This document shows positions 33,219 through 33,579 of a stretch of DNA of 41,934 nucleotides, one piece after another. The DNA lies in the NCBI GenBank assembly GCA_036655895.1, contig JAVVPF010000028.1:1-41934 (forward strand). The letters are read 5' to 3'. Each line of letters begins with the position of its first letter. Position 1 is the first letter of the stretch. The notes beneath the pieces are model-generated. The model saw nothing but the letters and a program-made list of their open reading frames with translations. It did no database searches and was not told the DNA's origin. Origin of the DNA: Cloacibacillus sp. (lineage in GTDB: Bacteria > Synergistota > Synergistia > Synergistales > Synergistaceae). The position numbers and the translations under genes were made by a program.

Positions 33219-33252
33219 TATGTCAACTATAATATTAAAAATAGTTGACATA
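33219..33252. promoter_or_regulatory. Candidate BirA operator of the bio operon (perfect inverted repeat)
   Basis: TATGTCAACTAT (33219-33230) and ATAGTTGACATA (33241-33252) are perfect inverted copies 10 nt apart. Read as ATGTCAAC, 16 nt, GTTGACAT it matches the shape of BirA boxes (TGTnAAC ... GTTnACA with 14-16 nt between). A minus-strand TTGACA (33221-33226) lies inside it, with GATAAA 16 nt further on. No birA gene is in the window. Confidence 0.6.
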
Positions 33253-33291: not shown

Positions 33292-33321
33292 TTGACACGA
33301 CATGAAACTTGCGTGTACAAT
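33292..33321 (+). promoter_or_regulatory. Promoter of the met leader transcript
   Basis: Exact TTGACA (33292-33297), 18-nt spacer, TACAAT (33316-33321). Transcription should start near 33328, about 30 nt before the leader ORF. Confidence 0.75.
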
Positions 33322-33345
33322 CTTTCGCAATACGCGGCTAAGGAA

Positions 33346-33469
33346 GGAGAGAGGCTCATGTTTGTAAAGGATCACTCAATAATGTACATGATGATGTGCG
33401 TGATGCGCGGCTCTCCCTTCGATAAGGCGGCGTAGTCTATCGCTGTCATTTATTGACCGGGAGGAGCGC
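33346..33469 (+). promoter_or_regulatory. Competing RNA pairings of the met leader (anti-antiterminator and antiterminator)
   Basis: Segment 1, GGAGAG (33346-33351, within the Shine-Dalgarno), pairs with CTCTCC (33411-33416). Segment 2 (33405-33417) can instead pair with 33459-33469 in the 5' arm of the terminator: GCGC with GCGC, TC with GA and TCCC with GGGA, with two bulges. The pairings are mutually exclusive with each other or with the terminator. Hand-folded, no energies calculated. Confidence 0.5.
33358..33435 (+). CDS. Methionine-rich 25-aa leader peptide (putative attenuator)
   Basis: A 25-codon ORF with a strong Shine-Dalgarno (AAGGAGAGAGG just upstream of ATG 33358) and a TAG stop at 33433. 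Residues 9-16 read MYMMMCVM: five Met among eight residues, at codons 9, 11, 12, 13 and 16. The stop is 20 nt before an intrinsic terminator, and the next gene encodes a MetQ-type methionine-binding protein. This is the arrangement of a leader peptide in ribosome-mediated attenuation: scarcity of Met-tRNA would stall the ribosome on the ATG codons. No protein function beyond this is proposed. It also happens to be the end of a longer 130-codon frame that opens inside bioY on the opposite strand; I reject that frame. Confidence 0.75.
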   Translation: MFVKDHSIMYMMMCVMRGSPFDKAA

Positions 33470-33493
33470 GGCGCTCTTTCCGGTCTTTTTTTT
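33455..33493 (+). terminator. Attenuator terminator between the leader ORF and metQ
   Basis: 33455-33468 pairs with 33472-33485 over 14 consecutive positions (two G-U), loop of 3 nt, followed by eight T (33486-33493). It lies 87 bp before the metQ ATG, so read-through is needed for metQ expression from the leader promoter. Confidence 0.88.
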
Positions 33494-33579
33494 ATTTTGA
33501 GGGGAGGACGGTTTTTATTTCAGGGTTTTGAGTATCGTTAAATTGCAACGGCAAATTATAAAAATCTGGAGGTTTTATT

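Follow-up and report, generated by a model that had tools for sequence, protein, structure and literature searches.

A predicted methionine-specific leader-peptide attenuator upstream of metQ in Cloacibacillus, and related leaders across Synergistota

The leader upstream of metQ in a Cloacibacillus sp. contig is very probably a ribosome-mediated transcription attenuator of the trp/his type with methionine specificity, as judged from its sequence and from modelled RNA folds. The window analysed here is the whole 41,934-nucleotide stretch of contig JAVVPF010000028.1, and the leader lies at 33292-33493 on its forward strand. Comparison with other genomes supports the view that this element belongs to a family of attenuators with interchangeable codons that spans the phylum. 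In Synergistota, one scaffold has probably been re-coded for methionine, branched-chain and aromatic amino acids, and partly set behind a complete SAM-I riboswitch as an RNA-only two-input gate.

Synergistota are amino-acid fermenters with few genetic tools. Known methionine control senses SAM, through riboswitches or MetJ, or uncharged tRNA, through the T-box, and a coupled ribosome reading Met codons would be a further route of methionine control. In the proteobacterial trp, his, leu, ilv, thr and phe attenuators, a leader open reading frame (ORF) carries control codons, an antiterminator competes with a terminator, and a 1:2 pairing sequesters the Shine-Dalgarno (SD) sequence.

The metQ leader and its predicted structures

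The leader transcript is headed by a sigma-70-type promoter (33292-33321, + strand; 11/12 matches in a consensus scan), with TTGACA at 33292-33297 and TACAAT at 33316-33321 separated by an 18-nt spacer, and the RNA probably starts at about 33328. By eye, many orthologues have a similar promoter at the matching position. The remaining parts follow on the same strand: an SD sequence, AGGAAGGAG (33341-33349), which belongs to segment 1 and can pair with segment 2, and a leader ORF of 25 codons plus a TAG stop, MFVKDHSIMYMMMCVMRGSPFDKAA (33358-33435). ATG occurs at codons 9, 11, 12, 13 and 16. The three consecutive Met codons 11-13 (33388-33396) form a conserved run of putative control codons, and the Cys codon right behind them (33397-33399) belongs to a conserved MMMC core; a Cys codon stands right behind the Met run in most Met-gene leaders. 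The regulated gene, metQ (33580-34356, + strand), encodes a methionine ABC transporter substrate-binding lipoprotein (Pfam PF03180, E 2.5e-84); NCBIfam assigns the product to the MetQ/NlpA family with a score below the curated cut-offs. A second MetQ paralogue of this genome lies in a metN-containing operon on contig C22. Direct reading and scanning confirmed the promoter, the spacer, the SD sequence, the 25-codon ORF, its ATG positions and the downstream metQ that an earlier note on this DNA had described.

Three RNA structures are predicted for the leader (all + strand), and the region of each folded better than all 200 of its dinucleotide shuffles. The intrinsic terminator (33455-33493; -25.2 kcal/mol, z -4.45) has the stem 33455-33468:33472-33485 followed by U8 (33486-33493); it was also found by the consensus scan and shows compensatory changes in orthologues. 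It had been described as a perfect 14-bp stem with eight T; the 14 uninterrupted pairs and the U8 are there, but two of the 14 pairs are G-U and the stem is not perfectly Watson-Crick. The antiterminator (33406-33470; -32.9 kcal/mol, z -3.67) comprises four paired blocks (33406-33409:33467-33470, 33412-33417:33459-33464, 33419-33425:33450-33456 and 33426-33432:33441-33447) with the leader stop codon in the apical loop, and shows covariation in the orthologues and in the wider family. In the folds it overlaps the 5' arm of the terminator, which makes the two structures mutually exclusive. Without translation, a predicted anti-antiterminator (33331-33434; fold of 33328-33435, -38.1 kcal/mol, z -3.61) would hide both the leader SD and segment 2 through the pairs 33343-33347:33416-33420 and 33349-33353:33411-33415; it draws on partner permutation and has less support than the other two structures. 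The three alternative pairings proposed earlier exist and are far better than shuffles. The antiterminator, drawn there as two segments, is really one imperfect and much longer hairpin. The pairing of the SD region with segment 2 is predicted in all leaders folded, and conservation of the SD confounds covariation there. A local hairpin over the Met codons occurs in some leaders; it is not general and is hence not counted among the parts.

Two further features stand beside these. A purine-rich, SD-like element at 33500-33511 comes soon after the terminator and far upstream of the metQ start; most orthologues have an equivalent, which is absent from the shorter leaders L010-L012. Upstream, a perfect inverted repeat at 33220-33251, ATGTCAACTA-N12-TAGTTGACAT, covers a promoter-like site of a divergent bioY-looking gene, and it looks like a biotin-repressor (BirA-type) operator.

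Conservation, covariation and ribosome geometry

A search for MetQ orthologues covered 60 relatives. Orthologues without the Met cluster or the terminator had been named as grounds for refuting attenuation; a Met-run ORF of the same layout and a terminator are present upstream in 14/14 loci with 76-100% MetQ identity, as well as in many distant ones, and the antiterminator is kept likewise. Distant MetQ genes with a Met-run leader include those behind MICNVTNGADKAMMMCMMPRGSSPGMVGA (L026) and MRLSDSNMMMCDMMCCLCGAPEGEYGG (L048). Leader peptides of the close orthologues typically end in IM(Y/C)MMMC...GSSPE..GA, and their N-terminal half has no conservation. The window's leader has lost the GSSPE peptide and yet retains the hairpin through other bases; because of this, the 3' half of the leader ORF appears to be under selection as RNA.

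The same observation bears on nascent-peptide arrest of the TnaC kind, in which the ribosome would be halted by a Met-rich peptide that itself binds methionine or SAM inside the exit tunnel. The conserved MMMC core speaks for arrest, but residues outside that core track RNA pairing and not peptide identity, as the loss of GSSPE in the window illustrates, and where a TnaC-like arrest peptide would have conserved sequence beyond the control codons, the C-terminal residues here vary with the pairing. The same scaffold also carries Val/Leu/Ile or Phe/Tyr runs, and arrest would give an uptake gene a response of the wrong sign, except if the stall led to termination. We consider arrest very improbable.

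Covariation accompanies the conserved layout. When the 14 orthologues were simply aligned with MAFFT (A1, where the window's own row is poorly aligned), 83.8% of antiterminator cells were paired as against 27-51% with slid partners, and 7/19 pairs have changes on both sides; for the terminator in the orthologues, 95.5% are paired, with both-side changes at 5/11 pairs. Across 89 leaders, double changes occur at 16/19 antiterminator pairs and the covariation score is 0.499 versus 0.035-0.073 for slid partners, in an alignment that was fitted to covariance model R1 and so leans towards the structure. Partners were also exchanged between leaders. Segment 2 pairs with the region past the stop at -35.1 kcal/mol with its own partner and -27.7 with swapped ones. 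For the SD region with segment 2, the mean is -24.9 kcal/mol for own partners versus -22.0 for swapped ones; 0/10,000 permutations were as good overall, and the permutation within the close group gave p 0.01.

To determine where a stalled ribosome would stand, each codon was placed in the A site in turn, with the ribosome edge set 15 nt past the first P-site base, an assumed standard toeprint value, and only the RNA ahead of the ribosome, up to the 5' arm of the terminator, was folded. In the close orthologues, the folded antiterminator remains intact until the ribosome stands at about the end of the Met run and begins to decay one codon later; in the window, the run ends at or next to this last permissive codon. 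Counted from the last permissive codon as position 0, a codon that structure alone defines, Met occurs at -2/-1/0 in 86/91/55% of 56 Met-gene leaders and in 0% of 38 branched-chain and 11 aromatic leaders. Codons of the leaders' own group occupy these positions in 82/68/84% for Ile/Leu/Val and 18/100/100% for Phe/Tyr/Trp. A ribosome at the stop codon leaves little or none of the antiterminator in most folded leaders, and none in the window's. The earlier note had seen a weak point in a stop codon lying farther past segment 2 than in trp; that objection falls away, since the stop sits inside the loop of the long antiterminator hairpin, and a ribosome reaching it is for that reason predicted to disrupt the hairpin.

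A chance Met-rich ORF before an ordinary upstream terminator might be imagined, as short ORFs are common and shuffling leads one to expect a terminator-like site about 0.7 times in such a stretch. Conservation, covariation and geometry across dozens of genomes already refute it, and its probability is negligible.

The Cys codon behind the Met run raises the question of dual sensing, in which this attenuator would respond to Cys-tRNA as well as Met-tRNA and so to two sulfur amino acids. Cys stands at position 0 in 20/56 and at +1 in 19/56 Met-gene leaders (up to 39/56), some leaders have several Cys (e.g. MMMCDMMCCLCG in L048), and in close orthologues a ribosome one codon past the Met run leaves part of the antiterminator, such as 9/12 pairs in L002. 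The predicted metL leader of Streptomyces likewise mixes Met and Cys (PMC8079986). On the other hand, several orthologues (L004-L008) have Arg in place of Cys with the Met run intact, and the Cys codon mostly lies at or past the edge where loss of the antiterminator begins. Dual sensing seems unlikely to us.

Under attenuation by methionine, transcription of the leader by RNA polymerase and translation of the 25-codon ORF by a ribosome would go on together. If Met-tRNA(Met) is in short supply, this ribosome would stall on codons 11-13 with its leading edge just short of the antiterminator; hairpin 33406-33470 could then form and take the 5' arm of the terminator, allowing read-through into metQ. 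Given ample Met-tRNA, the ribosome would proceed to the stop codon and open the antiterminator, while segment 2 behind it may pair with the SD region; the terminator at 33455-33485 with its U8 would form and transcription would end. Without translation, the SD region would pair with segment 2 and termination would be favoured. The response to methionine, its effect size and any role of the neighbouring Cys codon are our inferences. The trp-like scheme proposed earlier, with a ribosome stalled on the Met codons, is supported by conservation, covariation, codon-gene matching and geometry. The element has an SD-led short ORF between promoter and gene, control codons cognate to that gene, an upstream intrinsic terminator and a mutually exclusive antiterminator, and in the folds its control codons are placed such that a stall would free the antiterminator and an advance would break it.

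It resembles proteobacterial attenuators in having a leader ORF with control codons just before the antiterminator and mutually exclusive hairpins; an SD-sequestering pairing like theirs is predicted, with weaker support. In contrast to them, it is predicted to be methionine-specific, belongs to the phylum Synergistota and uses one scaffold for several amino acids; in addition, its stop codon lies inside the long antiterminator loop, whereas that of proteobacterial attenuators is close behind segment 2.

One scaffold for several amino acids in Synergistota

Model R1, which includes the Met codons and whose matches are therefore biased to Met, was run over all 188 genomes of the phylum at a threshold of E ≤ 1e-4, with E-values from short calibrations, and matched in 62/188 genomes. 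Following genes were read from the loci, representatives were identified with NCBIfam and Pfam, and about 120 loci were given a leader and gene assignment by script and then by eye, with 35 leaders receiving no assigned gene. The genes that follow Met-run leaders are metQ, metN (metNIQ), metX, metY in the form of two kinds of O-acetylhomoserine sulfhydrylase (OAH sulfhydrylase), and one of the cystathionine-lyase type. Three predicted Met attenuators lie in the window's genome, before metQ, before metNIQ (C22:9986, leader MKLNTQYFANNMMMCIYSDGSSYDSTDA) and before metY (C34, leader MSAYCVKMMMCRLMCSSASLVDSGSMRP), the last gene encoding a MetY identified by TIGR01326 above cut-off. A codon-level DNA pattern of the Met version, searched over 84,980 genomes, returned 30 stretches, 26 of them on Synergistota contigs; the four others (Rufibacter, Archangium, Chloroflexi and Brevundimonas) do not resemble leader ORFs. 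This distribution suggests that the Met version, as a sequence, is confined to Synergistota.

The scaffold itself extends to other amino acids. Model R2 leaves out the control codons and has a structure set by hand; RNAalifold derived none from the mixed alignment A4, in which MAFFT puts the 3' arm in two registers. With its false-positive rate judged from its E-values and from gene matching, R2 found the scaffold in 124/188 Synergistota genomes (e.g. L209-L268). In the leaders newly found in this way, the run consists of Val/Leu/Ile codons where ilvN, leuA, ilvD or leuC follows and of Phe/Tyr codons where the next gene is for a paaK-like ligase; among the earlier R1 matches, ilvA has an Ile run and panB a Val run. 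In the window's genome, Val codons stand in a leader before ilvN (C15) and Ile codons in L210 (C29:24037; leader MLKGNLNQNIIIIIINAAPPRRIGA), which precedes an operon for a Por/Kor-type 2-oxoacid:ferredoxin oxidoreductase (gamma, alpha, beta), a hint that this enzyme may supply isoleucine.

Codon run and gene agree closely. Among 86 leaders with an assigned gene, those with a Met run precede methionine genes and other genes at 36:0 and the rest at 1:49 (Fisher p 1.7e-23), counts that include many orthologues and so do not amount to 86 independent events; the gene families number 6 for methionine and 8 others, with 0 exceptions. The sole leader without a Met run before a methionine gene (metY) is L085, whose frame was mis-picked and which reads ATGATGATG in another frame.

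The codon run reveals the amino acid served and could in this way point to the function and direction of uncertain genes, such as the paaK-like ligases and the Por-type oxidoreductase. Phe/Tyr leaders stand before a paaK-like arylacetate-CoA ligase at L111, L114, L117, L119, L133, L213, L214, L217, L221, L230 and L263. The ligase is usually regarded as catabolic; the leaders suggest that it is induced at aromatic amino acid scarcity, that is, that it works in arylacetate assimilation. At L233, a Phe-rich leader (FFFSFFFS) precedes an operon with DAHP synthase and an apparent aroA. Similar-looking membrane-protein genes have different leaders at L110 (NMMC) and L255 (YIIIL), and these leaders might distinguish the substrates of their membrane proteins.

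Other methionine leaders and tandem SAM-I riboswitches

The earlier note was aware of no characterised methionine leader-peptide attenuator. One prediction had in fact been made, metL of Streptomyces lividans, without a clear terminator (PMC8079986). That metL is a predicted leader upstream of metNIQ that is called leaderless and for which its authors found no typical Rho-independent terminator (PMC8079986). Like the window's leader, it is a Met-containing leader peptide with Cys mixed in, before methionine-uptake genes; unlike it, metL (MSTTSDRTPATEATTTPGARCMCRRMCAF) has no Met run, and comparative support is not reported in the part of the source consulted (PMC8079986). A comparative study of Actinobacteria described no conserved RNA regulation before methionine operons, and known actinobacterial cys, ilv and trp leader peptides, of which the cys leaders lack terminators (PMC1262725). 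What the Synergistota leaders have in common with these cys, ilv and trp leaders is that codon runs precede amino-acid genes in bacteria other than Proteobacteria. Methionine leader peptides are not mentioned in the available portion of a terminator survey (PMC2965389). In the open-access literature, the methionine leader attenuator therefore appears new apart from one incomplete prediction, and its priority is not certain.

SAM-I (RF00162) and the T-box (RF00230) are likewise RNA elements able to control methionine genes through a terminator; unlike the window's element, they have no leader ORF and detect SAM or uncharged tRNA directly. A metabolite riboswitch for SAM or methionine could be proposed to govern the metQ terminator with the ORF incidental, the more so as a SAM-I riboswitch occurs in 113/188 Synergistota genomes and there precedes methionine genes. 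Against this, the window contains no Rfam family, the T-box included, and the window's genome gave no SAM-I match at the search threshold; T-box matches are listed for that genome on other contigs. Where a SAM-I does occur, it lies before the attenuator as an element of its own, and a riboswitch would leave the matching of codons to genes unexplained. This makes riboswitch control of the terminator extremely improbable.

Nine loci have a Met attenuator with a SAM-I aptamer some 110-160 nt upstream in the same orientation; the gene that follows is metQ (G041, G058, G048, G056, G073 and G077), metX (G091) or metY (G091 and G185). The leaders are L048, L049, L050, L096, L097, L104, L134 and L137, together with G058:C9:26196-26554. 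An Rfam scan confirms eight of the nine SAM-I elements at 71-90 bits, and that of G058 comes from the genome search. The riboswitch upstream is independent evidence that the genes at these loci answer to the methionine pathway. When the stretch from aptamer to ORF was folded at five loci, a strong hairpin with a T run appeared in four and a weaker one in L104. From these folds we infer a two-terminator, two-input gate at the tandem loci; if this is true, transcription would need both SAM and charged Met-tRNA to be low. A search of the open-access literature found no report of a SAM riboswitch in tandem with a methionine leader-peptide attenuator. The tandem loci offer a direct way to ask for what reason a cell monitors SAM as well as Met-tRNA. 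At one of them, L049, a TwoAYGGAY RNA (RF01731; L049:5899-6052) shares the locus with the tandem SAM-I and Met attenuator.
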